Program-made: the position numbers and the translations under genes
The notes under the pieces: generated by a model
Told to the model about the DNA's origin: nothing
Seen by the model: the letters and a program-made list of their open reading frames with translations, nothing else
Databases searched by the model: none
Shown: positions 34,365 through 51,978 of the stretch, in pieces
Numbering within the stretch: the first letter of the stretch is position 1
How the letters are laid out: each line of letters starts with the position of its first letter
Assembly: GCF_003202235.1 (NCBI RefSeq)
Contig: NZ_MASU01000005.1
Span: 1,054,001-1,118,000, forward strand
Source of the DNA: Prauserella flavalba
Lineage (GTDB): Bacteria; Actinomycetota; Actinomycetes; Mycobacteriales; Pseudonocardiaceae
Length of the DNA stretch: 64,000 nucleotides
Direction of reading: 5' to 3'

Positions 34365-34367
34365 GGC

Positions 34368-35336: not shown

Positions 35337-35353
35337 GCGTGCGGGTGCTCCCT

Positions 35354-36322: not shown

Positions 36323-38131
36323 ATGGCGCAGCGTAAGACCGGCGACGGCCGGACCGTGGTCGACGGCCCGGCAACCATGACCCCCTCCGAGGCCTTCGTC
36401 GAGACACTCGTGGCCAACGGGGTCACCGACATCTTCGGCATCATGGGCTCCGCGTTCATGGACGCGATGGACATCTTCGCCCCGGCCGGCATCCGGCTGG
36501 TCCCCGTCGTGCACGAGCAGGGCGCCGCGCACATGGCCGACGGTTACGCACGCGTCAGCGGCAGGCACGGCGTGGTGATCGGGCAGAACGGCCCTGGCAT
36601 CAGCAACTGCGTCACGGCGATCGCGGCGGCGTACTGGGCACACAGCCCCGTAGTGATCGTGACCCCCGAGGCGGGCACGATGGGCATGGGCCTCGGCGGC
36701 TTCCAGGAGGCCAACCAGCTGCCGATGTTCCAGGAGTTCACCAAGTACCAGGCGCACGTCAACAACCCGCGCCGCATGGCCGAGCTCACCGGCCGCGCCT
36801 TCGACCGCGCGATGTCGGAGATCGGCCCGACGCAGCTCAACATCCCGCGCGACTTCTTCTACGGCGAGATCGAGGCCGAGATCCCCGACCCGCAGCGCCT
36901 CGACCGGGGGCCCGGCGGCGACCAGAGCCTCAACGAGGCCGCCGAGCTGCTCGCCTCCGCCGAGTTCCCCGTGATCATCGCCGGCGGCGGCGTGGTGATG
37001 GCCGACGGCGTCGAGGAATGCAAGGCCCTGGCCGAACGGCTCGGCGCGCCGGTGGTGAACAGCTACCTGCACAACGACTCCTTCCCCGCCAGCCACCCGC
37101 AGTGGTGCGGACCGCTGGGCTACCAGGGGTCGAAAGCCGCTATGAAACTGATCTCCCAGGCCGACGTGGTGGTGGCGCTGGGCTCGCGGCTCGGGCCGTT
37201 CGGCACGCTGCCGCAGCACGGGATGGACTACTGGCCCAAGAACGCCAAGATCATCCAGATCGACGCCGACCACAAGATGCTCGGGCTGGTCAAGAAGATC
37301 ACCGTCGGGATCTGTGGTGACGCGAAGGCCGCCGCCGCCGCGCTCACCCAGCGCCTCGAGGGACGCACGCTCGCCTGCGACGCCACGCGGGAGCAGCGGG
37401 CCGCCACGACGAAGGCCGAGAAGGACGCGTGGGAGGCCGAGCTGACGGCGTGGACCCACGAGACCGACCCGTTCAGCCTCGACATGATCGCCGAGCAGGA
37501 GCAGGAGGAAGGCGGCTGGCTGCACCCGCGGCAGGTGCTGCGCGAGCTCGAGAAGGCCATGCCGCCGCGGGTGATGGTCTCCACTGACATCGGCAACATC
37601 AACTCGGTGGCCAACAGCTACCTGCGGTTCGAGGAACCGCGCAGCTTCCTGGCCCCGATGAGCTTCGGCAACTGCGGTTACGCGCTGCCGACCGTCATCG
37701 GCGCCAAGGCCGCGGCGCCCGACCGGCCCGCCATCGCCTACGCCGGTGACGGCGCGTGGGGCATGAGCATGGGCGAGATCATGACCGCCGTCCGCCACGA
37801 CATCCCGGTGACCGCCGTGGTGTTCCACAACCGGCAGTGGGGCGCGGAGAAGAAGAACCAGGTCGACTTCTACAACCGCCGGTTCGTCGCCGGAGAGCTG
37901 GACAACGAGAGCTTCGCCGGGATCGCCCGCGCGATGGGAGCGGACGGCGTGGTGGTGGACAAGCTCGAGGACGTCGGCCCTGCCCTGCGCAAGGCCGTCG
38001 ACGCGCAGATGAACGACGGGCGCACCACGGTCGTCGAGGTGATGTGCACCCGGGAGCTGGGCGACCCGTTCCGTCGCGACGCGCTGTCCAAGCCGGTGCG
38101 CTTCCTGCCGAAGTACCAGGACTACGTGTAA
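36323..38131 (+). CDS. xsc: Sulfoacetaldehyde acetyltransferase
   Basis: A 602-residue thiamine-diphosphate enzyme converting sulfoacetaldehyde and phosphate to acetyl phosphate and sulfite, the desulfonation step of taurine, isethionate and sulfoacetate breakdown. The N-terminus GVTDIFGIMGSAFMDAMD, the HEQGAAHMADGYARVSG segment with the catalytic Glu, GQNGPGISN, TPEAGTMGMGLGGFQE and the cofactor motif GDGAWGMSMGE are the pattern I know from characterised Xsc proteins, and the length matches. ATG 36323 follows TAGGAG. The product acetyl phosphate would go to the phosphate acetyltransferase at 50950, the sulfite to the molybdoenzyme module at 39217-46274. Confidence 0.95.
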   Translation: MAQRKTGDGRTVVDGPATMTPSEAFVETLVANGVTDIFGIMGSAFMDAMDIFAPAGIRLVPVVHEQGAAHMADGYARVSGRHGVVIGQNGPGISNCVTAIAAAYWAHSPVVIVTPEAGTMGMGLGGFQEANQLPMFQEFTKYQAHVNNPRRMAELTGRAFDRAMSEIGPTQLNIPRDFFYGEIEAEIPDPQRLDRGPGGDQSLNEAAELLASAEFPVIIAGGGVVMADGVEECKALAERLGAPVVNSYLHNDSFPASHPQWCGPLGYQGSKAAMKLISQADVVVALGSRLGPFGTLPQHGMDYWPKNAKIIQIDADHKMLGLVKKITVGICGDAKAAAAALTQRLEGRTLACDATREQRAATTKAEKDAWEAELTAWTHETDPFSLDMIAEQEQEEGGWLHPRQVLRELEKAMPPRVMVSTDIGNINSVANSYLRFEEPRSFLAPMSFGNCGYALPTVIGAKAAAPDRPAIAYAGDGAWGMSMGEIMTAVRHDIPVTAVVFHNRQWGAEKKNQVDFYNRRFVAGELDNESFAGIARAMGADGVVVDKLEDVGPALRKAVDAQMNDGRTTVVEVMCTRELGDPFRRDALSKPVRFLPKYQDYV

Positions 38132-38188: not shown

Positions 38189-39109
38189 TCAGCGCCGGCC
38201 AGGACTCCCGCCCGCCGCCGCGACGACGTCCCGCAACGCCGGGGACAGCTGCTGCCCCCCGCGCAGCACCAGGCGCAGCGAGCGGTGCAGGTCGAGGCCC
38301 GACGTGGGCACCACCACGAGCTTGCCCTGCGCCACGTCCTCGGCCAGCGCGAGCGAGCTGAGCACCGCCGGGCCGAGTCCCGCCTCCACGGCGGCCTTGA
38401 TCGCCGTGGTGGACGACAGCTCCATGACGGGGTTGGGGCGGGTGCGGTAGCCCAGCCGGTCCAGCTCGCGGTCCAGCACGTAGCGCGTGCCCGAGCCCGG
38501 CTCGCGGCTGATCAGCGCCTCGGCGGCGAGTTCCGCCGCGCGCACGGGACGCCCCCGGCGTGCCCAGGGATGGTCGGGGTGCACCACGAGCAGCAGCTGA
38601 TCCTCGGCCACCACCTGGGAATCCAGTCCCTCCGCCGGTTCGGCGCCCTCCACGAAGCCGAGGTCCACCGCTCCGCCGAGCACCAGCTCCACGACCTTCG
38701 CGGAGTTCACCACCTGGAGCCCGATCGTCGTGTCGGGCCTGCGCCTGCGCAGCTCGCTCAGCCAGCCCGGCAACAGGTACTCCGCGATGGTCATGCTGCA
38801 CGCGAGCTGGATCCGGCTCGCCTGCTGGCCACGCAACGCCGCGATGCCGGCGTCCAGCGCGGAGGCGGCGTCGATCACCCGGCCCGCCCAGTCCGCGATC
38901 ACGGCACCCTCGTCGGTGAGCCGGGAACCGGTGGCGGAACGCACGATCAGCGGCACCCCCGTGAGCCGCTCCATGTTCCGGATCCGCGACGCCGCGGCCG
39001 GTTGCGAGATGCCGTGTTCCTTCGCCGCCTTCCCGAGGCTGCCCAGCCGCGCGACGCTCAGCAACAGGTCCAGTGCCCCGATCTCGGGCACGCGCGGTGG
39101 CAGTGGCAC
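38189..39109 (-). CDS. LysR family transcriptional regulator
   Basis: A 306-residue LysR regulator with N-terminal helix-turn-helix (SLGKAAKEHGISQPAAASRIRNMERLTG) and a periplasmic-binding-type effector domain (ISREPGSGTRYVLD is typical of the CysB/CysL/CbbR-like group). GTG start at 39109. Divergent from the Fe-S/NrfD gene across a palindrome at 39121-39143. LysR proteins of this group often respond to sulfur or redox metabolites, so a sulfite-related inducer for the downstream operon is plausible (inference). Confidence 0.92.
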   Translation of the reverse strand: MPLPPRVPEIGALDLLLSVARLGSLGKAAKEHGISQPAAASRIRNMERLTGVPLIVRSATGSRLTDEGAVIADWAGRVIDAASALDAGIAALRGQQASRIQLACSMTIAEYLLPGWLSELRRRRPDTTIGLQVVNSAKVVELVLGGAVDLGFVEGAEPAEGLDSQVVAEDQLLLVVHPDHPWARRGRPVRAAELAAEALISREPGSGTRYVLDRELDRLGYRTRPNPVMELSSTTAIKAAVEAGLGPAVLSSLALAEDVAQGKLVVVPTSGLDLHRSLRLVLRGGQQLSPALRDVVAAAGGSPGRR

Positions 39110-39216: not shown

Positions 39217-40761
39217 ATGCGCTACGGCTTCGCGATCGACCAGCGCACCTGCATCGGCTGCCACGCCTGCACAGTGGCGTGCAAGACCGAGCACGAGGTG
39301 CCGGTGGGACAGTTCCGCACGTGGGTGAAGTACGTGGAGTCCGGGGAGTTCCCCGCGACCACGCGCGACTTCGGTGTCATGCGGTGCAATCACTGCACCG
39401 ACGCGCCGTGCGTCAAGATCTGCCCCACGCAGGCACTGTTCACAAGGGACGATGGGATCGTCGACTTCGACAACGAGCGGTGCATCGGCTGCAAGGCGTG
39501 CATGCAGGCGTGTCCCTACGACGCGATCTATCTCGACGAGGACACCCACACCGCCGCCAAGTGCAACTTCTGCGCCCACCGCGTCGACGAGGGACTCGAA
39601 CCGGCCTGCGTGGTGGTGTGCCCGACCCATTCGATCTGGGTCGGCGACCTCGACGACCCGGGCAGCGGGATCGCCCGCCTGGTCAACGAGAACCCCACGC
39701 AGGTGCGCGCGCCCGAGCAGAACACCGGGCCCAACGTTTTCTACCTCGGCGCCGACCGGGCGGTGCTCGACCCGCTCGCGGCCCCCACCGGCGACACGTA
39801 CCTGTGGGCCCGCCCCGACGAGCACCGCCGCAGCGCGTCCACCGACCTGCCTACCGACCCGGTGACGCAGGCCCGCACCACGCTCAACACGGCACACCCC
39901 CGGCCGTGGGGCTGGCGGGTGACGACGTACCTCTGGACGAAGGCCGCCGGTGCAGGCGCGATGCTCATCGCCGCGCTCGCCCACCTGCTCGGCATCGAGC
40001 TGGGCGGGACCGGCGACGTCGTGGCCCCCGCGCTCGGCGTCGCGGGGCTCGCCGTCACCGGCGTGCTGCTCGTGTGGGACCTCAAGCGGCCCGAGCGGTT
40101 CCTGTTCATCTTCCTCAAGCCCAACCCGAGATCGTGGATGTTCTGGGGCGCCGTGGTGCTCGCCGCCGCGGCGGCCGTGTTCACCGCCTGGCTCGCCACG
40201 GGCATCCTCGCCGCGACCGGCGAGCTGGCCGCGGCCACGGCCGACGCCGTGCTCACCGGGCTCGCCGTGCCCGCTCTGCTCACCGGGGCGCTGACGGCGG
40301 GCTACACCGGCTTCCTGTTCGGCCAGGCCGAGGGCCGCGACCTGTGGCAGTCGCCGCTCTTGTTCTGGCACCTGATCGTGCAGGCGCTCATGGTGGGTGG
40401 CGGCGTGCTCACCCTCGCCGTCGCCGCGGGCGAGCCCTCCCCCGCCGCCCGCTCGCTGCTGCTCGCCGCGCTCACGCTCGGCGCGGGCGGTCACCTGGTG
40501 ATGACGCTGCTGGAATACCTGGGCAGGCACACCACCGCGCACGCGGCAGCCGCGGCGCACATGGTCACCTCCGGCCGCTACGCCCGCCTCTTCTGGACCG
40601 GCGGCGCCGGCCTCGCCGCGCTCGGCGCGCTGCTGGGCGGCGTGGGCTGGGCAGGCGGCCCGCTCGTGCTCGCCGCCGCGGGTGGCGTCGTCGTGCAGGC
40701 CGCGCTCCTCGCGTACGAGAGCGTCTTCGTCCGCGCCGGGCAAGACGTCCCGCTGTCCTAG
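39217..40761 (+). CDS. Fused four-cluster Fe-S protein / NrfD-type membrane subunit
   Basis: A 514-residue fusion. Residues 1-185 form a PsrB/DmsB-type ferredoxin with four cysteine clusters: CIGCHACTVACK, CNHCTDAPCVKICP, CIGCKACMQACP and CNFCAHR...CVVVCP. From about residue 230 to the end is an NrfD/PsrC-like quinone-reactive membrane domain with around eight hydrophobic segments. In most complexes (Psr, Phs, SoeABC) these are two proteins. ATG 39217 follows CGGAGGTGTC. With the molybdenum subunit encoded 30 bases downstream it forms a membrane-bound complex exchanging electrons with the quinone pool; oxidising sulfite from Xsc is the favoured role (inference). Confidence 0.88.
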   Translation: MRYGFAIDQRTCIGCHACTVACKTEHEVPVGQFRTWVKYVESGEFPATTRDFGVMRCNHCTDAPCVKICPTQALFTRDDGIVDFDNERCIGCKACMQACPYDAIYLDEDTHTAAKCNFCAHRVDEGLEPACVVVCPTHSIWVGDLDDPGSGIARLVNENPTQVRAPEQNTGPNVFYLGADRAVLDPLAAPTGDTYLWARPDEHRRSASTDLPTDPVTQARTTLNTAHPRPWGWRVTTYLWTKAAGAGAMLIAALAHLLGIELGGTGDVVAPALGVAGLAVTGVLLVWDLKRPERFLFIFLKPNPRSWMFWGAVVLAAAAAVFTAWLATGILAATGELAAATADAVLTGLAVPALLTGALTAGYTGFLFGQAEGRDLWQSPLLFWHLIVQALMVGGGVLTLAVAAGEPSPAARSLLLAALTLGAGGHLVMTLLEYLGRHTTAHAAAAAHMVTSGRYARLFWTGGAGLAALGALLGGVGWAGGPLVLAAAGGVVVQAALLAYESVFVRAGQDVPLS

Positions 40762-40791
40762 AACCCAGCACCGCCGAAAGGAGCCAGAGTC

Positions 40792-43626
40792 ATGAGCGGG
40801 ACCGACCCCGTCCTCCCCGGCTCACGCAGCCACGAGCACCTCCGCAACTTCCCGCCGGTGTCCGCGTGGGACCACCACGTCGAGTACGACGCCAAGGCGC
40901 ATCCGCGCAAGGTCGCGCATTCCTACCTGCTGGTGCCCACCACGTGCTTCAACTGCGAGAGCGCGTGCGGCCTGCTGGCCTACGTCGACAAGGACGACCT
41001 GTCGGTCAAGAAGCTCGAGGGCAACCCGGCGCATCCCGGCTCCCGTGGCCGCAACTGCGCCAAGGGTCCCGCGACGATCAACCAGATCAACGATCCCGAG
41101 CGGATCCTGTACCCGTTGCGCCGCACCGGCGAACGCGGCGGGGGCGGCTGGGAACAGGTCAGCTGGGACGAGGCACTCGACGACATCGCGGCCCGGATCC
41201 GGACCGCGATCGTCGAGGAGCGGCACGACGAGATCATGTACCACGTCGGCAGGCCCGGCGAGGACGGCTTCGCCGAACGGTTCCTCACCGCCTGGGGCGT
41301 GGACGGGCACAACACGCACACCAACATCTGCTCGGCCGGGGCGCGGTTCGGGATGTCGCTGTGGACCGGCTACGACCGGCCCTCGGCCGACCACGCCAAC
41401 GCCAAGGTGATCCTGCTGCTGTCGAGCCACCTGGAGACGGGGCACTACTTCAACCCGCACGCCCAGCGGATCATGGAGGGCAAGCAGTCCGGGGCGAAGC
41501 TCGTGGTGATGGACCCCCGCCTGTCCAACACGGCCTCGCACGCCGACGTGTGGCTGACGCCGTGGCCCGGCAGCGAGGCCGCGGTGCTGCTGGCCGTGGC
41601 GTCGTACCTGCTGCGCACCCGCCGCATCGACACCGAGTACGTGCGCCGGTGGTTCAACTGGGACACCTACCTCGCCGAGCTGCACCCGGACGCGCCCCGC
41701 GACTTCGAGACGTTCCTCGACCGCATCACCGACGACTACGCGGACTACACCTTCGAGTTCGCCGCGCAGGAGGCGCAGGTACCGGCCGACCGGATCGAGG
41801 AGATCGCCGAGCTGGTGGCCGACTGCGACGGGCGGCTGTCCGCGCACATCTGGCGGGCGGCGGCCGCGGGCAACCTCGGTGGCTGGCAGGTCGCCCGGGC
41901 GCTGTGGTTCGTGCTCGCGCTCACCGGCAGCATCGGGACCAGGGGCGGCACGAGCCCCAACGGCTGGCACAAGTTCATCCCGCACGGCCCCGCCAAGCCC
42001 GAGCCGCACGAGCGGTGGAACGAGCTGATCTGGCCGCGCGACTATCCGTTGTCCACCAACGAGATGTCGTTCCTGCTGCCCCATTTCCTCGCCGAGGGCC
42101 GGGGCAGGCTCGAGGTCTACTTCTCGCGCGTCTACAACCCCGTCTGGACCAACCCCGACGGGTTCACCTGGATCGAGCAGCTGTCCGATCCGGACAAGGT
42201 GGGCCTGCACGTGGCGCTCACGCCGACGTGGTCGGAGACCGCCGAGTTCGCCGACTACGTCCTGCCCATGGGGCACGCCAGCGAACGGCACGACACGCAT
42301 TCCTACGAGACCCACGCCGGGCGGTGGCTCGGCTTCCGGCAGCCGGTGCGCCGCGTGGCGATGGACAAGCTGGGCAGGCCCTACACCGACACCCGCGACG
42401 TCAACCCCGGCGAGGTGTGGGAGGAGAACGAGTTCTGGTTCGAGCTGTCCTGGCGCATCGACCCGGACGGCTCGCTGGGCATCCGCCGCTACTTCGAGTC
42501 CCCGTACCGGCCCGGCGAGAAGATCACCGTGGACGAGTACTACCGGTGGCTGTTCGAGAACCAGGTGCCGGGGCTGGCGAAGAAGGCCGCCGACGAGGGC
42601 ATGGAGCCGCTGGAGTACATGCGCCGCTACGGCGTCGTCGCGCTGGACGACGAGGTCTACCGCGTCGACGAGCGCGCCGTACCCGGCGAGCAGCTGGAGA
42701 ACGCGACCGCCGACGAGAACGGGGTGCTGCGCACCCCGGTGACCCCGGACTCCGTGGCGCCCGTCGTCGGCGAGGCCGGTGCGATCGGCCTCCGGCACGA
42801 GGACGGCACCGCGACCGTGGGCTGGCCGACGCCGTCGCGCAAGCTGGAGGTGTACTCCACGGCGATGCGCGACTGGGGCCGTCCCGAGAAGGCCACGCCC
42901 GGCTACCTGCGCTCGCACGTGGCCCGCAGCGAGATCGACGTCGAGGCGGGCGAGCTGGTGCTCGTGCCCACCTTCCGGCTGCCCACGCTGATCCACACGC
43001 GCTCCGGCAACGCCAAGTACCTCAACGAGATCTCCAACACCCACCCGCTCTGGCTCCACTCGCTGGACGCCGCGCGGCACGGCGTGGTGACCGACGACCT
43101 CGTGCGCATCAGCACCGAGATCGGTTACTTCGTCGCGCGGGTGTGGGTCACCGAGGGGATCCGGCCCGGTGTCTGCGCGCTGTCCCACCACATGGGCCGG
43201 TGGCGGCTGCACCCGGGCGAGGGCAGCCGCTGGACCACCGGCATGGTGGAGCTGTCCCATCCGGACGGTGAGCACACCTGGCTGCTGCGGCACCGCGGCG
43301 GGGTCGCGCCGTTCGACTCCTCCGACCCGGACTCGAGCCGGATCAACTGGGAGGACCCCGGCGTGCACCAGAACCTCGCGTTCGCCGTGCACCCGGACCC
43401 GGAGTCGGGCATGCACTGCTGGCTGCAGAAGATCAAGCTGGAGTACGCGCACCCCGGGGACCGCTACGGCGACGTCTACGTCGACACGCGGCGCTCCGCG
43501 GAGGTGTACCGGCAGTGGCTGGCGCGCACGAGCCCCGACCTCGGTCCCGGCGGGCGGCGGCGACCCGAGTTCATGATGCGCCCGCTCGCCCCGAAACTGC
43601 GCGGTTACCGGGTGCCGGAATGCTGA
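40792..43626 (+). CDS. Molybdopterin oxidoreductase, catalytic subunit (SoeA/PsrA-like)
   Basis: A 944-residue complex-iron-sulfur molybdoenzyme subunit. The N-terminal [4Fe-4S] site is CFNCESAC with Cys 52, 55, 59 and 89; Cys180 in NTHTNICSAGARFG is the probable Mo ligand. The C-terminal domain (about 760-900) has the molybdopterin dinucleotide-binding fold, with LPTLIHTRSGNAKYLNEI. There is no twin-arginine signal, so the enzyme faces the cytoplasm, as SoeA sulfite dehydrogenase does and unlike exported PsrA/PhsA. ATG follows AAAGGAGCC. Reaction is not proven by sequence; sulfite to sulfate fits the neighbours, polysulfide or another oxyanion is possible. Confidence 0.88.
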   Translation: MSGTDPVLPGSRSHEHLRNFPPVSAWDHHVEYDAKAHPRKVAHSYLLVPTTCFNCESACGLLAYVDKDDLSVKKLEGNPAHPGSRGRNCAKGPATINQINDPERILYPLRRTGERGGGGWEQVSWDEALDDIAARIRTAIVEERHDEIMYHVGRPGEDGFAERFLTAWGVDGHNTHTNICSAGARFGMSLWTGYDRPSADHANAKVILLLSSHLETGHYFNPHAQRIMEGKQSGAKLVVMDPRLSNTASHADVWLTPWPGSEAAVLLAVASYLLRTRRIDTEYVRRWFNWDTYLAELHPDAPRDFETFLDRITDDYADYTFEFAAQEAQVPADRIEEIAELVADCDGRLSAHIWRAAAAGNLGGWQVARALWFVLALTGSIGTRGGTSPNGWHKFIPHGPAKPEPHERWNELIWPRDYPLSTNEMSFLLPHFLAEGRGRLEVYFSRVYNPVWTNPDGFTWIEQLSDPDKVGLHVALTPTWSETAEFADYVLPMGHASERHDTHSYETHAGRWLGFRQPVRRVAMDKLGRPYTDTRDVNPGEVWEENEFWFELSWRIDPDGSLGIRRYFESPYRPGEKITVDEYYRWLFENQVPGLAKKAADEGMEPLEYMRRYGVVALDDEVYRVDERAVPGEQLENATADENGVLRTPVTPDSVAPVVGEAGAIGLRHEDGTATVGWPTPSRKLEVYSTAMRDWGRPEKATPGYLRSHVARSEIDVEAGELVLVPTFRLPTLIHTRSGNAKYLNEISNTHPLWLHSLDAARHGVVTDDLVRISTEIGYFVARVWVTEGIRPGVCALSHHMGRWRLHPGEGSRWTTGMVELSHPDGEHTWLLRHRGGVAPFDSSDPDSSRINWEDPGVHQNLAFAVHPDPESGMHCWLQKIKLEYAHPGDRYGDVYVDTRRSAEVYRQWLARTSPDLGPGGRRRPEFMMRPLAPKLRGYRVPEC

Positions 43627-44732
43627 CCCGGCGCGGCACCACGGTCGACCACGCGGCCCTGCGCGAGGCCGTGGGCGCGGTGGAGGACCCGGAGATCCAC
43701 CGGGGCCTCGGCGAGCTCGGCATGCTCCGCGACGTCACCACCGACCGGCGCGGCACCGCCCACGTCGCCGTCGCGCTGACCACGCCCACGTGCCCGTTGC
43801 GGGAGCAGCTGCAGGCCGACGTCACCGCCGCCGCGTCGGCGGTGCCGGGTGTGACCGGCGTGGAGGTGAGCTTCACGACGCTGTCGGACCGGGAGCGGCT
43901 GGCGCTGTCGCAGCGGCTGCGCGAACAGCAGCCGGTGCGCCTCGGCGCCGAGACGCTCGTCTACGCGGTCGCGAGCGGCAAGGGCGGGGTCGGGAAGTCC
44001 TCGGTCGCGGCGAACCTGGCCGTGGCACTGGCCCGCGACGGCAAGCGAGTCGGGCTGCTCGACGCCGACGTGTGGGGCTACTCGGTGCCGCAGCTGTTCG
44101 GTGTCCGGCGCAGCCCGGTGGCGTTGAAAGGGCTCATGCTGCCGGTCGACGCCCACGGCGTGCGGCTGATGTCGGTCGGGTTCCTCGTCGGCGACGGTGA
44201 GCCCGTGGTGTGGCGGGGACCGATGCTGCACAAGGCGCTGGAGCAGTTCCTCACCGACGTGCACTGGGGCGAGCTGGACGTGCTGCTCGTGGACCTCCCG
44301 CCGGGCACGGGCGACGTGACGCTCTCGCTGCTGGAGCTGCTGCCGAGGGCGGCGCTGCTCGCCGTCACCACCCCGCAGGTGAGCGCCCAGACGGTGGCGA
44401 CGCGGGCGGGGCGGATGGCGGCGGACCTGCGCATGCCGCTCGCGGGGGTGGTGGAGAACATGTCCACACTGGTCTGCGAGTGCTGCGGTGAACGCACGGC
44501 GCTGTTCGGTTCTGGTGGCGGGCAACGGCTCGCCGACGACCTCGGCACCGAGCTGCTCGCCCGCATCCCCCTGGACGCCGCGCTGCGGCACGCCGGGGAC
44601 ACCGGTGTGCCGGTGGTGGCCGGGGCTCCGGAGGCACCGTCGGCGCTCGCGCTGTCCGACCTCGCGGCGCGGCTGCCCGTGGTGCGCAGGAGCCTGTCCG
44701 GGCTCGCCCTGCCGCTGTCGGTGGTCCGCTGA
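43620..44732 (+). CDS. Mrp/NBP35 family Fe-S carrier ATPase
   Basis: A 370-residue Mrp-type P-loop ATPase. N-terminal DUF59/MIP18 domain (about residues 10-90, VEDPEIHRGLGELGM), then deviant Walker A SGKGGVGKSS, DADVWGYSVPQLFG, LPPGTGDVTLSL, and the metal-binding CxxC in VCECCGE. Such proteins carry or insert Fe-S clusters. ATG 43620 overlaps the stop of the molybdoenzyme gene by 7 bases, so it is probably a dedicated maturation factor for the Fe-S-rich complex. Confidence 0.92.
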   Translation: MLTRRGTTVDHAALREAVGAVEDPEIHRGLGELGMLRDVTTDRRGTAHVAVALTTPTCPLREQLQADVTAAASAVPGVTGVEVSFTTLSDRERLALSQRLREQQPVRLGAETLVYAVASGKGGVGKSSVAANLAVALARDGKRVGLLDADVWGYSVPQLFGVRRSPVALKGLMLPVDAHGVRLMSVGFLVGDGEPVVWRGPMLHKALEQFLTDVHWGELDVLLVDLPPGTGDVTLSLLELLPRAALLAVTTPQVSAQTVATRAGRMAADLRMPLAGVVENMSTLVCECCGERTALFGSGGGQRLADDLGTELLARIPLDAALRHAGDTGVPVVAGAPEAPSALALSDLAARLPVVRRSLSGLALPLSVVR

Positions 44733-44735
44733 GCC

Positions 44736-46274
44736 GTGCGCGTTCCCCGAATCGCGCGACCGCGCGGCAAGACACTCGTGTACGACGCCGTCGCGGGCGT
44801 GAGCGTCGCGATGGTCGGCATCCCGCAGTCGCTGGCCTACGCCGAGCTCGCCGGGATGCCGCCCGTCGCCGGTCTCTACGCCGGTGCGCTCCCGCCCGTG
44901 CTCGCCGCGATCTTCGCCTCGTCGCCGTACCTGCAAACCGGTCCGGTGGCGATCACCGCGCTGCTGACGTTCAGCACCCTGAGCACCGTCGCGACCCCGG
45001 CGAGCCCCGAGTACGTCGGTCTCGGCCTCGCGCTGGCGTTCGTGATCGGCGTGGTCCGGGTGCTGCTGGGCGTGCTGCGGGCGGGCTGGCTCGCGTACCT
45101 GATGTCCCAGCCGATGCTGCTGGGTTTCGTGCCGGCCGCGGCGGTGCTGATCGCCGCGTCGCAGGTGCCGAAGGCGCTGGGCGTGAACCCGCCGGAGGAG
45201 GGCAACGAGATCGTCGCCGCGGTCACGAGCCTCGCCGATCCCGGGGCGTGGAGTCTCGCGGCGCTGGCGGTCACGGCGCTCACGGCGCTGGTGATCGTCG
45301 GCGGGCGGCGCCTGCACACCCTCTTCCCCGGCGTGCTCGTGGCCGCCGCGCTCGGCGTCGCGGTCTCGGCGGCCGGGCTCTATCCCGGCGCCGTCGTGCA
45401 GTCCGTGCCGTCGGGCCTGCTGCCGTTCACGCTCGACGACATTCCGTGGGACCGCGTGCCCTCGCTCATCCTGCCCGGCGTCATCATCGCGCTGATCGGG
45501 TTCACCGAGGCCGCGTCGATCGCACGCCGGTTCGCCGCCGAGGACGGCGGCCGGTGGAACTCCAACCGCGAGTTCGTCGGCCAGGGCGTGGCGAATCTGG
45601 CGGCCGCGGCGGTCGGCGGGATGCCCTGTGGCGGCTCGTTCTCCCGCAGCTCGGTGAACCGGATGTCGGGAGCGCGCACACGGTGGTCGGGTGCGTTCAC
45701 CGGGTTGACCGTGCTGGCGTTCCTGCCGTTCGCCGCTGTGCTCGAACCACTGCCGCTGGCCGTGCTGGGCGCGATCGTGATCGTCGCGGTCACGGGTCTG
45801 CTGAAATTCCGCCCGCTCGTGCGGCTGTGGCGGGTGTCGCGGCCGCAGGCGATGATCGCCTGGGCGACGTTCCTGGCGACGCTGCTGCTGGCTCCGCGGC
45901 TCGACCTGGCCGTGCTGCTCGGCGTGGGGCTGTCGCTCGCGGTGTTCCTGTGGCGGCTGCTGCAGCTGGAGGTCGACGTCACCGCGCACGACGGCGAACT
46001 GACGCTCGCCCCTCGGGGCGTGCTGTGGTTCGGCACCGCGCAGCGGCTCGACTCGCTCCTGCACGACCTGCTCGCCGCGCACCCGGACACCGTGCGGCTC
46101 GTGCTCGACCTGACCCGGCTGGGCCGCATCGACACCACCGGCGCGCTCGTGCTGCGCTCGATCCTGGAGCAGGCGCGAGGCTCCCGGCTGGAGACCGAGG
46201 TGCGGGGTGTTCCGCCGCAGTCTCAGCAGCTGACCGACCGGGTCCTGACGCCGAGGACGAGCCCGCTGGAGTGA
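44736..46274 (+). CDS. SulP family anion transporter with STAS domain
   Basis: A 512-residue SulP/SLC26 permease. The signature region near the N-terminus is IPQSLAYAELAGMPPVAGLYAG; about ten to twelve membrane segments follow, then a cytoplasmic STAS domain (about 410-500) with VLDLTRLGRIDTTGALVLRS. GTG 44736 lies 3 bases after the Mrp stop. Sulfate, sulfite or bicarbonate are usual substrates; at the end of a sulfite-oxidising operon it may remove sulfate or move sulfite (inference). Confidence 0.92.
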   Translation: MRVPRIARPRGKTLVYDAVAGVSVAMVGIPQSLAYAELAGMPPVAGLYAGALPPVLAAIFASSPYLQTGPVAITALLTFSTLSTVATPASPEYVGLGLALAFVIGVVRVLLGVLRAGWLAYLMSQPMLLGFVPAAAVLIAASQVPKALGVNPPEEGNEIVAAVTSLADPGAWSLAALAVTALTALVIVGGRRLHTLFPGVLVAAALGVAVSAAGLYPGAVVQSVPSGLLPFTLDDIPWDRVPSLILPGVIIALIGFTEAASIARRFAAEDGGRWNSNREFVGQGVANLAAAAVGGMPCGGSFSRSSVNRMSGARTRWSGAFTGLTVLAFLPFAAVLEPLPLAVLGAIVIVAVTGLLKFRPLVRLWRVSRPQAMIAWATFLATLLLAPRLDLAVLLGVGLSLAVFLWRLLQLEVDVTAHDGELTLAPRGVLWFGTAQRLDSLLHDLLAAHPDTVRLVLDLTRLGRIDTTGALVLRSILEQARGSRLETEVRGVPPQSQQLTDRVLTPRTSPLE

Positions 46275-46295: not shown

Positions 46296-47177
46296 TCACG
46301 CCGCGGGCTTGACGCCCGCGGCCAGCAGGGCGTCGCCGATCCCGCTGGGCAGGTCCACCACGGTCGCGCCCGCCGAGGTGAGGGCGTCCACTTTGGAGGT
46401 ACCGCTGCCCTTGCCCGCGCTGACGATCGCGCCGGCGTGGCCCATGCGGCGGTCGGGCGGGGCCGAACGGCCCGCGATGAAGGCGACGACGGGCTTGCGC
46501 ATCGTCGCGATGTACTCGGCCGCGTCCTCCTCCATCGAGCCGCCGATCTCCCCGACGAGCACGACCGCCTCGGTCCGCTCGTCCTCGTCCAGCTCCCGCA
46601 CGGCGTCGAGTGTGGTGGTGCCGAGGATCGGGTCGCCGCCGATGCCGATGAACGCCGACTGCCCGTAGCCCGCGCTGACGAGGTTGAGCGCGACGAGCGT
46701 GCCGAGGCTGCCGCTGCGGGAGATCACGCCGATCGAGCCCGGCCGGAAGATGTTGTCCGCGAAGCCGGGCATGATGCCCACCGACGCCACCCCGGGCACC
46801 ACGAGGCCCGCGGTGTTGGGGCCGAGCACCCTGGCGCCGTGGTCCCTGGCGTCGGCGAGCACGTGCATGATGTCCTGGTAGGGCACGTGCTCGGTCAGCA
46901 GCACGATCTTGCGGACCCCGGCTGCGACGGCGTCACCCGCGGCCTTGCGCACCGCGAGCGGCGGCACGAACAGCACGGACACGTCCAGCTCGTGCTCCCG
47001 CGCCGCGTCCACGACCGAGTCGTACACCGGTACGCCGCCGACCTCCCGGCCGCCCTTCCCGGGGCTGGCGCCCGCGACGATGCGCGTGCCGCACTCCGCC
47101 ATCCGCTCGGCCCAGAAGGAACCCTGCCTGCCAGTGAGTCCCTGCACGACCACGTTGTCCTGCGCGGAAACCAGCAT
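46296..47177 (-). CDS. sucD: Succinyl-CoA ligase-type alpha subunit (ADP-forming CoA ligase)
   Basis: A 293-residue SucD-fold protein. CoA-binding GLTGRQGSFWAERM, GPNTAGLVVPG and the phosphorylated active-site His in MGHAGAIVSAGKGSG are present. Its ATG overlaps the beta-subunit stop by one base (TGATG). The pair follows an acylating aldehyde dehydrogenase gene, not TCA genes, and is under an IclR-type operator shared with pta. An ADP-forming sulfoacetate-CoA ligase made of SucCD-like subunits is a known solution in sulfonate-degrading anaerobes, so a sulfoacetate role is proposed; succinate or malate ligase activity cannot be excluded. Confidence 0.9.
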   Translation of the reverse strand: MLVSAQDNVVVQGLTGRQGSFWAERMAECGTRIVAGASPGKGGREVGGVPVYDSVVDAAREHELDVSVLFVPPLAVRKAAGDAVAAGVRKIVLLTEHVPYQDIMHVLADARDHGARVLGPNTAGLVVPGVASVGIMPGFADNIFRPGSIGVISRSGSLGTLVALNLVSAGYGQSAFIGIGGDPILGTTTLDAVRELDEDERTEAVVLVGEIGGSMEEDAAEYIATMRKPVVAFIAGRSAPPDRRMGHAGAIVSAGKGSGTSKVDALTSAGATVVDLPSGIGDALLAAGVKPAA

Positions 47178-48337
47178 CAGCCCGCCACCTTTCCCTCGCC
47201 CGCCGCCGCGGCGACCGCCGCGCGGACCGCGTCGTCCATCGTGTCGTACGGCTCAACACCGAGCCGCTCCCTCACCAGCCGGATCGCCTTCTCCTCACCC
47301 GTTCCGTGAATCGAGAAGAAGATCGGCAGCTCCGGCCTCAGCTCCTCGATCGCGGCGAGCACGCCCTCGGTCATCACGTCGGTCCGGGCGAACGCGCCGC
47401 AGAAGTTCACCACCAGGCTGCGCACCCGCGGGTTGTCGAGCACGAGCCGCAACGCGGGAGTGGCCTTGGTGTAGGCGTCGCCACCGATCTCCAGGAAGTT
47501 GGCGGGCTTGCCACCGTAGTGGGTCACCGCGTCGAGGGTCGTCATCGTCAGTCCCGCACCGTTGGCCAGCACCCCGACCTCGCCGTCGAGCTCCAGGTAC
47601 TGCAGGCCGAGCTCGCGCCCGCGCCGCTCCAGTTCCGTTCCGGTGTCATCCCGCTCGGGCACGAGGTCGGCGACCAGCTCGGCGTGCCTGCCGAGCGCGC
47701 CGGGGTCGAGCGAGATCTTGCTGTCCAGTGCCACGACCTCGCCCGCGCCGGTCACCACGAGCGGGTTGACCTCGACCAGCTCGGCCTCCACCGTGCGGTA
47801 CAGCCGGTACATCGTGAGCAGCGCCGAGGTCACCTGCTCCTCGACGTGCTCGCCCAGGCCGAGGCCGGTGACGAGCGAGCGCGCGGCGTCCGCGGTGAGG
47901 CCGGTGCGGATGTCCACGCCGAGCCTGCGGATCGACTCCGGGTCGCGGGCGGAGAGCTCCTCGATGTCCATGCCGCCGGCCGGGCAGAACAGCACCAGCG
48001 GTCCCTTGCCAGCCGGGTCGTTGAGCACCGAGGCGTACAGCTCCTGCGCGATGTCGGCGGCCTCCTCCACCAGCACCGCGTCCACGCGCGAACCGGCCAG
48101 CTCGCTGCCGAGCAGGCGCGCCGCCGCCCCCGCCGCGTCCTCGGGTGCGCCGGCGAAGCCGATGCCGCCGGCCTTGCCCCGCTTGCCCGCGGGGACCTGT
48201 GCCTTGAGCGCGACACGGCAGCCCAGCACCGCGGCCGCCTGCTGCGCGGCCTCGGGCGTGGTCACCACCCGGCCCCTCGGCACCGGCACGCCCGCCTGCG
48301 CGAGCAGCTGCTTTCCCTGGTGTTCCAGCAGTTTCAT
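47177..48337 (-). CDS. sucC: Succinyl-CoA ligase-type beta subunit
   Basis: A 386-residue SucC-fold protein with ATP-grasp domain. LLEHQGKQLLAQAGVPVPRG at the N-terminus, VALKAQVPAGKRGKAGGIGFA, VEVNPLVVTGAGEVVALDSKI and FLEIGGDAYTKATPALRLVL are typical. ATG 48337 lies 2 bases after the aldehyde dehydrogenase stop. Partner of the alpha subunit; together they activate a carboxylate with CoA and ATP. The operon order ALDH-beta-alpha favours production of the CoA thioester that the acylating dehydrogenase then reduces. Confidence 0.9.
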   Translation of the reverse strand: MKLLEHQGKQLLAQAGVPVPRGRVVTTPEAAQQAAAVLGCRVALKAQVPAGKRGKAGGIGFAGAPEDAAGAAARLLGSELAGSRVDAVLVEEAADIAQELYASVLNDPAGKGPLVLFCPAGGMDIEELSARDPESIRRLGVDIRTGLTADAARSLVTGLGLGEHVEEQVTSALLTMYRLYRTVEAELVEVNPLVVTGAGEVVALDSKISLDPGALGRHAELVADLVPERDDTGTELERRGRELGLQYLELDGEVGVLANGAGLTMTTLDAVTHYGGKPANFLEIGGDAYTKATPALRLVLDNPRVRSLVVNFCGAFARTDVMTEGVLAAIEELRPELPIFFSIHGTGEEKAIRLVRERLGVEPYDTMDDAVRAAVAAAAGEGKVAG

Positions 48338-48339
48338 GG

Positions 48340-49749
48340 TCACCGCCCGTAGGTCTCGTGGTAGCGGCCCCACAGCTGTTCCTCGGTCGGAACGCGGGGC
48401 GGGATGACCCGGGCCAGCCGGGTGATGTTGAGGAAATGCCGGTAGGACAGGTTGTCGCTGATGCTGTTGCCCGCCCACGTCCCCGCCCCCATCGTGAGCG
48501 TGAACCCGAGGCCGTTGTCGAAGCCGCCGCCCGTGCCGAAGCAGTGCGCCTGGTTGACGAGCACGCGGGCCACGCGCAGCCGTTCGGCGACCATCGTGGC
48601 GTGCACCTCGGTGGCGGTGTGGATGCCGCACGAGTGCCCGGCGCCCTGGAAGTCCAGCAGCCGCTGGATACGCTTGATCGCCGCGCCGAGATCGTCGAAC
48701 CGGTAGACCGTGAGCACGACGGAGAGTTTCTCGCCGCTGAACGGGAAACCCGGTCCGACGCCGTCCTCCTCGACGAGGAAGAAGCTCGCGGACCGCGCCT
48801 CCGGTGAGTCCAAACCGGCCAGTGCGGCGATCTTGCCGGGCGGCTGTGCGGTGATGGCCGAGCTGAGCTTGCCGTCCGGCCACATCACGGCGGCGAGGCG
48901 TTCCTTCTCTTCCGGGGTCAGCAGGTAGCCGCCCTGCTCGCCCAGCGCGCGCAGCGTCGCGTCGTAGACCGCCGAGTGAATGTGGACGGAGTTCTCCGAC
49001 GAGCAGCTGGTGGCGTAGTCGAAGGTCTTGCTGCGCTTGATCTTCTCGGCCGCGCCGGCGATGTCGGCGTCGGCGTCGACGATGACGGGCGCGTTGCCGG
49101 CACCGACCCCGATGGCGGGGGTTCCGCTGCTGTAGGCCTGCCGGACGTTGCGCTGCGAGCCGGTGACCACCACGAGGTCCGCCTGCCGCATGAGCTCGTT
49201 GGTGAGCGCCTTGCTCGGTTCGGCGATGAACTGCACGAGGTCGCGGGGTGCGCCGACCTTGTCGAGCTCGGCGTGGATGTACTCGACGAGGAGGCGGCAC
49301 GTGGAGGCGCCCTTGGGTGAGGGCGAGAGGATCACGGCGTTACCGCCCTTGAGCGCCATCATGGTCTTGTTCGCCGGGGTGGCGGCGGGGTTGGTGGACG
49401 GGCAGACGGCGGCCACCACGCCGACAGGTTTCGCGTACTCGGTGATGCCGCTGTCCGGGTCGTCGGCGATCACGCCCACCGACTTCGCGCCGGTGAGGTC
49501 GCGCAGCGTGCCGAGCGTCTTGCGCTGGTTCTTGGCGACCTTGTCCTCGACGTTGCCGAGGCCGGTGTCCCGCACGGCGAGCTCCGCGAGCTCCCTGGCC
49601 CGGTCGGGGCGGTAGATCGCCCACGCGGCTCCCGCGACGACGTCGTCCACCTGTTGCTGGTCGTAGTCGGCGAAGATCGCCTGCGCGGCTCTGGCCCTCG
49701 TCACCAGCGCGGCGACCGTGTCCGCTGCGGAGGTGTCCTGTGTCTGCAT
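48340..49749 (-). CDS. sauS: Acylating aldehyde dehydrogenase, probable sulfoacetaldehyde dehydrogenase (SauS-like)
   Basis: A 469-residue CoA-acylating aldehyde dehydrogenase of the EutE/AdhE branch. The catalytic Cys lies in YATSCSSENSV, the counterpart of the ICASEQS motif of AdhE; VGVVAAVCPSTNPAATPANK is the usual cofactor region. It would interconvert an acyl-CoA and an aldehyde. With xsc, pta and the SucCD-type ligase in the same island the fitting reaction is sulfoacetyl-CoA to sulfoacetaldehyde, as for SauS; length agrees. ATG 49749 follows AAGGGACGCGAGG. A plain acetaldehyde or succinate-semialdehyde dehydrogenase is the alternative. Confidence 0.82.
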   Translation of the reverse strand: MQTQDTSAADTVAALVTRARAAQAIFADYDQQQVDDVVAGAAWAIYRPDRARELAELAVRDTGLGNVEDKVAKNQRKTLGTLRDLTGAKSVGVIADDPDSGITEYAKPVGVVAAVCPSTNPAATPANKTMMALKGGNAVILSPSPKGASTCRLLVEYIHAELDKVGAPRDLVQFIAEPSKALTNELMRQADLVVVTGSQRNVRQAYSSGTPAIGVGAGNAPVIVDADADIAGAAEKIKRSKTFDYATSCSSENSVHIHSAVYDATLRALGEQGGYLLTPEEKERLAAVMWPDGKLSSAITAQPPGKIAALAGLDSPEARSASFFLVEEDGVGPGFPFSGEKLSVVLTVYRFDDLGAAIKRIQRLLDFQGAGHSCGIHTATEVHATMVAERLRVARVLVNQAHCFGTGGGFDNGLGFTLTMGAGTWAGNSISDNLSYRHFLNITRLARVIPPRVPTEEQLWGRYHETYGR

Positions 49750-50013: not shown

Positions 50014-50817
50014 TCAGAAGGTGTGGCCGGGCGGCAGCAGTGCCGAGATCTCCTTGGCCGCCCGCATCGCCACGGGGCCCAGCTCGTCGAAGCGCTCGTC
50101 CGGAACCCGCACCGCGGGCGCCTGGATGGCGATGGCGGCGCGCGCGATACCGGCGCCGTCGCAGATGGGCGCACCGACACACCGCACGCCCTGCGTCAAC
50201 TCCTCGTTGTCGATGCTCCACCCCCGCGCGCGGGTGCGCTCCAGCTCCGAGCGGAGCTCCTTGGGAGTGCCGAAGGTGTTCGGCGTCAGCTGCTCAAGGC
50301 GCTTCACGCCGCGCAGCATGCGCTGCTCGGTCTCGGCGTTGAACGCGAGCAGCACCTTTCCCATGGACGACGCGTGCAGCGGCACGCGCGTGCCCGGCGG
50401 CTGCGTGAACCGCAGCGGCTTGGCCGACTCGATACGCTCCACCACCACGGCCGTGTCACCGGAAAGCACGCCGAGGTTCACCGATTCGCCCGTGCTGGCC
50501 GCGACCTGCTGCAGCACCGGGTACACGACGTCGAGCCCGAAGTTGCGGTGCGCCGCCTGCCCGAGCAGCAGCGCGCCCGTGCCCAGGTAGTACCGCTCGC
50601 TGTCCTCGTTCTGCGCGAGGTAGCCCTCGCTGACCAGCGCGCGCACGATGCGGTGGGTGGTGCTCACGTTGAGCCCGAGCTCCTTCGAGATCATCCCGAC
50701 GCCCAGATCGCCGCGATGTTCCCGGAACAGGCGTAGTACGGCGAACGCACGCGAGATGGTCTGCGCGCCGACCACCGGGCCGCCATTGGGCCGCCCCTCA
50801 CGATCCTCGGCCGACAT
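50014..50817 (-). CDS. IclR family transcriptional regulator
   Basis: A 267-residue IclR regulator: helix-turn-helix VGMISKELGLNVSTTHRIVRALVSEGYLAQ (residues about 40-70) and effector domain with ASSMGKVLLAFNAE and TQGVRCVGAPICDGAG. The ATG at 50817 has AGGAGGTGCC directly upstream, better than the GTG 15 bases earlier. Divergent from pta. The motif TGTCA-N4-TTGRAAT lies in front of this gene, pta, the acnX operon and the sauS operon, so this is the likely common regulator. Confidence 0.93.
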   Translation of the reverse strand: MSAEDREGRPNGGPVVGAQTISRAFAVLRLFREHRGDLGVGMISKELGLNVSTTHRIVRALVSEGYLAQNEDSERYYLGTGALLLGQAAHRNFGLDVVYPVLQQVAASTGESVNLGVLSGDTAVVVERIESAKPLRFTQPPGTRVPLHASSMGKVLLAFNAETEQRMLRGVKRLEQLTPNTFGTPKELRSELERTRARGWSIDNEELTQGVRCVGAPICDGAGIARAAIAIQAPAVRVPDERFDELGPVAMRAAKEISALLPPGHTF

Positions 50818-50826
50818 GGCACCTCC

Positions 50827-50842
50827 TGTCACATGTTGGAAT
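50827..50842. promoter_or_regulatory. IclR operator candidate, iclR leader
   Basis: TGTCACATGTTGGAAT, 10 bases upstream of the iclR start; matches the pta site at 14 of 16 positions. Suggests autoregulation. Confidence 0.55.
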
Positions 50843-50949: not shown

Positions 50950-51978
50950 ATGAGCGGTGCGCGGACGGTGCGAGCGGCCCCGGCCGAGAGCGAGCCCGTC
51001 CGCGAGCTGCTCGACCGCTGGCGCCGGGAGCTCGCCGGAGGGCCGACGCGCGTGCTGCTCGCCGACGGCGAGGACCCGAGGGCGGTCGAGGCCGCCGTCC
51101 GGCTGCACGAGCAGGGCCTGCACGGCGTGCGCCTGCTCGCCTCGCCCGCCCACCTGCCCGCGCACGCCGCGCGGCTCGCGCTCGACCCCGGTGAGCTGGC
51201 GGCCGACCCCCGGGTCACGGAGACCCTGCGCGCCGCCTTCGGCAAGCAGCCCGCGCCGAGGTTCGACAGCGCCCGCGAGGACCCGCTCTACCTGGGTGTG
51301 GCGGCGCTGCGCGCCGGTCTGCTCGACGCGTGCGTCGCCGGGGCGACCCGGCCCACCGCCGACGTGCTGCGCGCCGGGATGCGCGTGCTGGGCCCGGCTC
51401 CGGGCGTCCGGCACGTCAGCAGCGCGTTCCTGATGCTGCTCACCGACGGCAGGATGCTCGCCTTCGCCGACTGCGCCGTGCTGCCCGACCCGGACGCCCA
51501 CCAGCTCGCCGATATCGCCGTCGCCGCCGCCCACACCTACCGTGACCTCACCGACCGCGCACCCGTCGTCGCCATGCTGTCGTTCAGCACCCAGGGCAGC
51601 GCGCGTCACCAGTCGGTCGACAAGGTGCGCACGGCCACCGCGCTCGTGCGCGAGCGGCTGCCCGGTCTTCCCGTGGACGGCGAACTGCAGCTCGACGCGG
51701 CGCTCGTGTCCGCGGTGGGCCAGGCGAAGGCTCCGGGCTCCGCTGTGGCCGGCAACGCGAACGTGCTCGTGTTCCCCAACCTCGACGCGGGCAACATCGG
51801 CTACAAGATCGCCGAGCGGCTGGGCGGCGCGATCGCGCTCGGACCCATCGTGCAGGGCCTGCGCGCACCGCTCAACGACCTCTCGCGCGGTTGCGACAGC
51901 CGCGACATCGAGATCATGGCGATGATCAGCGGAGTGCAGGCCCTCGGTGCCCGGACCGGACACCGAGGGCCTGCCTGA
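50950..51978 (+). CDS. pta: Phosphate acetyltransferase
   Basis: A 342-residue single-domain Pta converting acetyl phosphate and CoA to acetyl-CoA. [16 protein letters not shown] at the start, [29 protein letters not shown] and [20 protein letters not shown] are the PTA_PTB family hallmarks. No acetate kinase is encoded beside it, so it does not belong to an ackA-pta pair; instead it fits the outlet of Xsc. Preceded by its own promoter and an IclR-type operator, and it starts after GGAGAGGTAGGC. Confidence 0.94.
51936..51974. terminator. Terminator hairpin at the pta 3' end
   Basis: Perfect 14-bp arms GCAGGCCCTCGGTG (51936-51949) and CACCGAGGGCCTGC (51961-51974) with an 11-base loop, inside the last codons of pta and 12 bases before the convergent permease stop. 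Confidence 0.75.

Follow-up and report, generated by a model that had tools for sequence, protein, structure and literature searches.

Sulfite is a toxic branch point in the breakdown of sulfonates and sulfide. SoeABC, a cytoplasmic sulfite:quinone oxidoreductase known from Allochromatium vinosum, Aquifex aeolicus and Ruegeria pomeroyi, combines a molybdenum-Fe4S4 catalytic subunit without a twin-arginine translocation (Tat) signal, a four-cluster B subunit and a membrane anchor with a quinone site, according to the accounts of these shared features in PMC4334477 and PMC8076601. Here we describe a locus in a 64,000-nucleotide stretch of Prauserella flavalba DNA (hereafter the window; contig NZ_MASU01000005.1, positions 1,054,001 to 1,118,000, from a genome of 8.09 Mb). 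Four genes at window positions 39217-46274 encode a fused Fe-S/membrane protein (BC), a molybdoenzyme (A), an Mrp-type ATPase and a SulP-type permease. From sequence comparisons, we think that BC and A probably form a cytoplasmic sulfite:menaquinone oxidoreductase with a working mode like that of SoeABC.

SoeABC has three separate subunits, whereas B and C of the lineage described here are one reading frame. PMC8076601 reports SoeC in Proteobacteria, Clostridia and Aquificae; the fused lineage is found in Actinomycetota, haloarchaea and others. PsrABC and PhsABC (e.g., Thermus PsrABC, 2VPW) resemble the fused type in that they form the nearest clade, the B domain is 47% identical to PsrB, and C has an NrfD domain and folds like PsrC. 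They differ in that they are Tat-exported, encode B separately from both A and C, and have the opposite membrane orientation as judged by loop charge.

Neither a sulfite dehydrogenase with fused B and C nor an actinobacterial lineage of this kind was described in the literature that we searched, which was mainly open-access and did not extend to bioRxiv preprints or single-protein database annotations. In work on Rhodococcus, PMC8557817 points to a SorA/SoxC-like candidate, and PMC5218467 gives its strain a weak match to SoeA and none to SoeB or SoeC. A sediment survey reports increased pdo expression in twenty phyla including Actinobacteriota, with SoeABC not detected and SorA/SUOX scarce (PMC12345210). 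Part of this shortfall could be accounted for by a widespread enzyme that the SoeABC models do not cover. If the broader proposal of a second origin given below is correct, SoeABC-based annotation would miss a sulfite dehydrogenase in many Actinomycetota and in some haloarchaea, Thermomicrobiota and Acidobacteriota.

B and C are fused throughout the sampled lineage

The four genes proposed in an initial annotation of this DNA are all present, with the following coordinates, products and Pfam domains.

39217..40761, + strand: BC, Fe-S/NrfD fusion, 514 aa; Fer4_11 at residues 55-144, NrfD at 224-468
40792..43626, + strand: A, catalytic molybdopterin subunit, 944 aa; Molybdop_Fe4S4 at 48-100, Molybdopterin at 104-504, Molydop_binding at 734-803
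43620..44732, + strand: Mrp/ApbC-type Fe-S carrier ATPase, 370 aa; PF10609 (NUBPL/ParA) 292 bits and PF01883 (FeS_assembly_P); NCBIfam ApbC 243/348 bits, below cut-off
44736..46274, + strand: SulP-family anion permease with STAS, 512 aa; PF00916 261 bits and PF01740; TIGR00815 270/380 bits, below cut-off

The genes are tightly coupled. BC and A are separated by 30 nt, and AAAGGAG, which resembles a ribosome-binding site, precedes A. The A frame runs 7 nt into that of Mrp, and a gap of 3 nt separates Mrp from SulP.

BC consists of an N-terminal four-cluster ferredoxin domain (B) and an eight-helix NrfD/PsrC-type membrane anchor (C). An AlphaFold2 model (predicted local distance difference test (pLDDT) 85.5, predicted template modeling score (pTM) 0.85) has eight long helices in residues 232-510. 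Its best Foldseek match was PsrB (2vpw_B), and PsrC (2vpw_C) was also matched.

We found that the fusion is conserved. A scan of genome contigs yielded 185 relatives, and the locus counts given here rest on the best 80. BC is a single, stop-free frame in all relatives in which it is complete (74/74), and a sequencing or frame artefact is thereby rejected. BC lies immediately upstream of A in every locus with room for it (77/77); the remaining three loci start at or inside A. This pairing is far above chance. Counting the window's own genome, relatives of A occur in 18/296 genomes of its class, taken to be Actinomycetes (E-value limit 1e-60), and in 26/198 genomes of its phylum (limit 1e-100). 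The initial annotation had rightly set the fusion apart from the separate subunits of SoeABC but had called it uncommon. Given the single frame in the complete loci and the frequent occurrence, it is the norm within this lineage.

The initial annotation had counted the associated Mrp and SulP genes as part of the uncommon arrangement. Mrp is frequent, lying immediately downstream of A in 38/71 loci with room, and SulP is less so, with a relative in the flank (up to 10 kb) of 16/80 loci by tblastn and 15/80 by neighbor cluster. Mrp also lies within ~6 kb of two exported-type loci, and the link to Mrp may therefore predate the fusion.

The catalytic subunit has a conserved cofactor layout and lacks an export signal

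We aligned A of the window with 47 of its 77 complete relatives (48 of the 78 available sequences). The four Fe-S cysteines (C52, C55, C59, C89) and C180 noted at the outset are invariant in all 48 rows. In PsrA (2vpw) and NapA (2jim) the residue aligned with C180 is also a Cys, which we take to be the Mo ligand of each, and Cys180 is the probable Mo ligand of A.

The lack of a Tat signal was also borne out. There is no twin-arginine motif in the first 40 residues of A or the first 30 of BC from the window. Among the relatives, with in-frame extensions included, 16/77 A and 7/74 BC rows contain RR strings, and by inspection none was seen to be followed by a hydrophobic stretch.

A scored below every NCBIfam cut-off. 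The top score was to PhsA (170/694 bits), and ArrA (79/1600), TtrA (91/1750) and the DmsA/YnfE subfamily (144/778) were further matched; we rejected membership in any of these families, as the scores are far below the cut-offs. A structural model of A (pLDDT 86.8, pTM 0.89) matched ArrA best and PsrA next in Foldseek, and the structural comparison did not separate substrate groups. The match to ArrA could indicate that A is a reductase working in reverse, with tetrathionate, arsenate, an S-oxide or sulfite as acceptor, or an oxidoreductase of arsenite or another oxyanion. Such activities are known among superfamily relatives. However, the ArrA, TtrA and DmsA/YnfE scores argue against this, and no reductase-type partner was identified among the neighbor clusters. 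We consider this explanation very improbable.

The anchor is predicted to be inverted relative to PsrC

We counted Lys and Arg residues in the loops on either side of the anchor. In 75 fused BC proteins the loops on the B side had a mean of 10.7 (range 8-15), in contrast to 0.57 (range 0-4) on the opposite side. Every one of the 75 thus has the predicted positive-inside pattern, with a minimum of 8 on the B side and a maximum of 4 on the other. Nine exported-type anchors and TtrC had 2-5 on the B side and 1-7 on the opposite side. Helix limits were taken from the hydropathy of the fused family and carried over to other anchors by alignment, and the comparison is therefore approximate.

These charges fit a cytoplasmic B domain on an anchor inverted with respect to PsrC; the loops at 287-309, 367-383 and 433-461 would then face inward along with B. 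Together with the missing Tat signal in the window, they support the cytoplasmic orientation first proposed for the enzyme. An inverted orientation was put forward for SoeC as a hypothesis in the NrfD review (PMC8076601). The BC fusion and its loop charges are natural evidence on how an NrfD-type anchor is oriented; if the broader proposal given below is correct, the fusion would lock B to the inner face and make the inverted-NrfD idea directly testable.

The fused lineage looks separate from SoeA

We built a tree of 48 rows (IQ-TREE, LG+C20), a different set from the alignment above, with 16 of 81 fused A sequences among them. The Sulfurovum A (locus L111, two frames in the record) and those of L137, L139, L141, L179, L182 and L184 were left out, and the sequences of L134 and L142 were shortened at the start. 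The 16 fused sequences formed one clade (support 100/100) on a stem of 1.26. Their sister group was 12 enzymes with a twin-arginine motif and, where it was seen, B in a separate frame; the 28 rows were joined with support of 100/99. Nine Tat-less SoeA-type rows formed a separate clade (100/100).

The SoeA-type rows are proxies from the class of Salinisphaera, identified by their features rather than by comparison with the A. vinosum sequence: no Tat motif, ~970 aa, a separate B in 8/9 loci and, by inspection, a similar C frame in 8/9. The locus lacking B and C is L178; aprA lies beside one of the genes. No SoeA of A. vinosum, Aquifex or Ruegeria was recognized among the named-plasmid matches listed (60 of 632 records). 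Several plasmid relatives were considered as SoeA and rejected: that of Azoarcus carries a Tat motif and is missing the third Fe-S cysteine, and the Loktanella and Deinococcus matches, judged by their annotated neighbors, are a formate dehydrogenase of the FDH3 type and a Rieske-linked MopB, respectively. L137 was set aside because of a TGA within the Fe-S motif of its A frame. This locus (G569, upstream of 5706) encodes an unfused MopB-type A with the in-frame TGA at a cysteine-like Fe-S position, possibly a selenocysteine codon.

The fused complex might instead be a genuine SoeABC and an ortholog of the proteobacterial enzyme, with fusion of the B and C genes having taken place in Actinobacteria. 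The shared cofactor layout and the lack of a Tat signal would agree with this, as would the setting of the genes: soeCBA of R. pomeroyi adjoins pta, with tauR close by (PMC4334477). By analogy, the R. pomeroyi genes may be another lineage occupying a similar niche. The tree argues against orthology, as the fused and SoeA-type sequences are in two separate clades. Constraining them to group together cost 26.7 log-likelihood units and was rejected by the approximately unbiased (AU) test (p-AU 0.0013), which is strict only for groups defined beforehand. Long branches join the SoeA-type rows to TtrA, and their own position is unsure because of this. In addition, the anchors differ in family: NrfD (PF03916) in the fused lineage, DmsC (PF04976) in the single SoeA-type locus that was checked. 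We regard orthology with SoeABC as quite improbable, and suggest that, as far as sampled, the fused A does not belong to the SoeA clade. PMC10100899 places SoeA and bacterial SreA in a lineage apart from PsrA/PhsA.

The initial annotation had likened A to SoeA. The likeness holds for the predicted working mode but not for descent, as the exported Psr/Phs-type enzymes are nearer to A than the Tat-less gammaproteobacterial SoeA type is. It had also named a phylogeny as a check, with placement among enzymes for another substrate as a point against it. The outcome lies halfway: a long stem carries the fused A, which is a neighbor of the Psr/Phs-type group rather than a member of it. The fused type appears to be an independent lineage that descends from exported Psr/Phs-type complexes and has converged on SoeABC.

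An unfused homolog on a plasmid of Sulfurovum mangrovi (NZ_CP087125.1, L111 8084-13169) is nearer to the fused type than the other unfused plasmid matches. As in the fused loci, its A (38% identity) has no visible Tat motif and is adjoined by B and NrfD. It differs in that B and C are separate, a TorD gene adjoins and A is recorded as two overlapping frames. It is possible that this form is an intermediate between the exported and fused forms. TorD-family genes adjoin the A genes of both Sulfurovum and Azoarcus; among the 80 fused loci the only tblastn match, a weak test for such proteins, was downstream of the Acidobacteriota gene.

The window contains genes for sulfoacetate breakdown

The other genes around BC-A in the window are as follows.

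36323..38131, + strand: Xsc, sulfite-releasing sulfoacetaldehyde acetyltransferase; TIGR03457 1078 bits, cut-off 676
38189..39109, - strand: LysR regulator, divergent from BC; PF03466, PF00126
46296..47177, - strand: SucD-like subunit of a probable ADP-forming sulfoacetate-CoA ligase (SauD-like; role suggested by SauCD in PMC12890257); TIGR01019 (succinate-CoA ligase) 327 bits, below cut-off 353
47177..48337, - strand: SucC-like subunit of the same probable ligase (SauC-like; role suggested likewise); NF001913 (succinate-CoA ligase) 348 bits, below cut-off 370
48340..49749, - strand: SauS, acylating sulfoacetaldehyde dehydrogenase; NF047625 (equivalog) 808 bits, cut-off 600
50014..50832, - strand: IclR-family regulator; NF045644 194/350 bits, below cut-off
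50950..51978, + strand: Pta, phosphotransacetylase (would turn the acetyl phosphate made by Xsc into acetyl-CoA); passes NF007233 subfamily cut-off (320 bits, cut-off 310), misses TIGR00651 equivalog (281/311)
51987..53351, - strand: MatC/CitMHS-type transporter, candidate sulfoacetate importer; PF07158, PF03600

Xsc is the neighbor of the set, as originally noted, with the divergent LysR gene between xsc and BC. Both SauS and Xsc exceed curated NCBIfam equivalog cut-offs in one cluster, the combination by which we recognized sulfoacetate catabolism. We suggest that the cluster joins a SauSCD-like set to Xsc and Pta, and that it would take up sulfoacetate and yield acetyl-CoA and sulfite. SauS with an ADP-forming heterodimeric ligase is likewise part of SauSCD in Bilophila wadsworthia, as described in PMC12890257 and PMC12625764. 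There the route is the isethionate radical route, whereas here the SauSCD-like set is joined to Xsc-Pta and the putative sulfite oxidoreductase.

As an observation in its own right, SauS and the SucCD-like ligase (46296-49749) are a probable actinobacterial sulfoacetate activation module coupled to Xsc. ARAGORN called a tRNA-Ser (gct) at 51707-51795 within the pta frame, probably a false positive.

Sulfur genes recur near BC-A and point to sulfite as the likely substrate

We clustered the genes neighboring the 80 loci and traced their distribution on a tree built from 81 fused A sequences. Flanks were up to 10 kb, and some contigs were short. The clusters came from a mechanical open reading frame (ORF) picker and undercount: BC was found in 62 loci, compared to 77 by tblastn. 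Sulfonate genes were present in the flank of 12/80 loci and metallo-beta-lactamase (MBL)-rhodanese genes, which are persulfide dioxygenase (PDO)-like, in 29/80; no locus had both. The sulfonate set was completed by hand because ORF clustering merged some frames, and it includes L079 and L082 through an aminotransferase alone. DsrE2-like genes were near 12/80 loci and TauE/SafE near 10/80. At least one of the PDO-like, DsrE2, TauE or sulfonate genes was near 45/80 loci. The A tree required a minimum of 7 state changes for the sulfonate genes and 16 for MBL-rhodanese (gains and losses, with short contigs scored as absent, which inflates both).

PDO-like genes were enriched at these loci. The background was 90 matches of the MBL-rhodanese type, many of them partial, across 20 of these genomes with a total of 130.7 Mb. 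A PDO-like gene was found at 8 of the 20 loci in these genomes, compared to ~0.016 expected per 23-kb stretch (binomial p 4e-10), a comparison chosen post hoc, on related loci and with a query of one of two domain orders. Among genomes with A, 3/18 have a true xsc, compared to 1/278 of those without (Fisher p 0.0007, or 0.009 minus the window's genome); this is co-occurrence rather than co-location, and two of the three genomes are from one genus. Should the MBL-rhodanese genes encode persulfide dioxygenases, two sources of one product, sulfite, would feed the same enzyme. Based on the neighbors in the window and across the 80 loci, sulfite, the substrate originally proposed, is likely.

Sulfur genes directly adjoin BC-A in some relatives. 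In Rhodococcus jostii RHA1 (plasmid pRHL3, with BC-A as RHA1_RS43840-43835) the gene row is DsrE-family, TusA-family, BC, A, Mrp, and in Halomicrococcus TauE/SafE adjoins BC-A. Separately, a haloarchaeal plasmid (L110 5742-15153) carries, consecutively, genes for a rhodanese, TauE/SafE, BC, A, a MobA-type guanylyltransferase and an anion permease.

The R. jostii gene row and the kinship to Psr/Phs-type enzymes make persulfide or thiosulfate chemistry the main rival. The complex might have kept a Psr/Phs-type substrate and act on thiosulfate, polysulfide or sulfane sulfur, using persulfide carried by TusA/DsrE2 or making thiosulfate from sulfite and persulfide. The 100/99 grouping in the tree, the top NCBIfam score to PhsA, the DsrE2-like genes and the TusA-family gene that immediately precedes BC in R. 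jostii all agree with this. However, the sulfonate clusters, which would yield sulfite and not persulfide, are near the pair in 12 loci that have no PDO-like genes, and the TauE/SafE genes in the flanks also speak against it. We consider this rival unlikely.

Several observations weigh against a sulfite oxidoreductase. The closest relatives by tree are Psr/Phs-type enzymes, with polysulfide and thiosulfate as known substrates. The PDO-like, DsrE2, TauE and sulfonate genes are all absent from the flanks of 35/80 loci (some on short contigs), and a nearly complete Xsc is present in only 4/80 loci, with a partial one in 2 more. The PDO label rests on domain content, with no NCBIfam equivalog cut-off reached, and the R. 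jostii DsrE2 (78/210 bits) and TusA (62/78 bits) genes are below theirs. Charge bias is absent (4 vs 4) from the unfused Sulfurovum anchor, although no Tat motif is visible in the A that goes with it. The window's genome also encodes three Oxidored_molyb (PF00174) proteins, possible other sulfite oxidases. Finally, we found no activity data for any member of the fused lineage.

Our preferred interpretation, a sulfite:menaquinone oxidoreductase, suggests the following mechanism. BC and A would form a membrane-anchored complex facing the cytoplasm. Sulfite would arise there from Xsc during sulfoacetate breakdown and, in relatives, from other sources such as persulfide dioxygenases. At the Cys180-ligated Mo-bisMGD (bis-molybdopterin guanine dinucleotide) of A, on the inner face of the membrane, sulfite, water and menaquinone would be converted to sulfate and menaquinol. 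Electrons would pass from the [4Fe-4S] cluster of A through the B-domain clusters to menaquinone in the covalently attached NrfD domain. Mrp may supply Fe-S clusters to the complex, and SulP would carry sulfate out; export or exchange of sulfate or sulfite is its likely role.

We regard a broader proposal as about evenly balanced. The complex may be a second, independent cytoplasmic Mo sulfite:menaquinone oxidoreductase that evolved from exported Psr/Phs-type reductases as the Tat signal was lost, NrfD was inverted and the Fe-S subunit became fused to it. It may serve as a general sulfite sink in many Actinomycetota and in some haloarchaea, Thermomicrobiota and Acidobacteriota.

Distribution and other genes

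The closest named relatives of A are from Prauserella (90-98% identity). Further relatives were found in Dormiibacterota, Thermomicrobium, an Acidobacteriota metagenome-assembled genome and Salinisphaera, and plasmid-borne relatives in Rhodococcus jostii RHA1, Thermomicrobium roseum and haloarchaea. A SauS relative was found in 7/80 loci and a LysR relative in 20/80. A GntR/UTRA-type regulator cluster (one representative scanned), which differs from the LysR gene of the window, is near BC-A in 20 loci (e.g., L092 5615-6484). Upstream in the window, on the minus strand at 32688-35543, are genes for a CobT-like VWA protein and a CobS-like ATPase; CobT-like relatives are also present at L027, L028 and L031.

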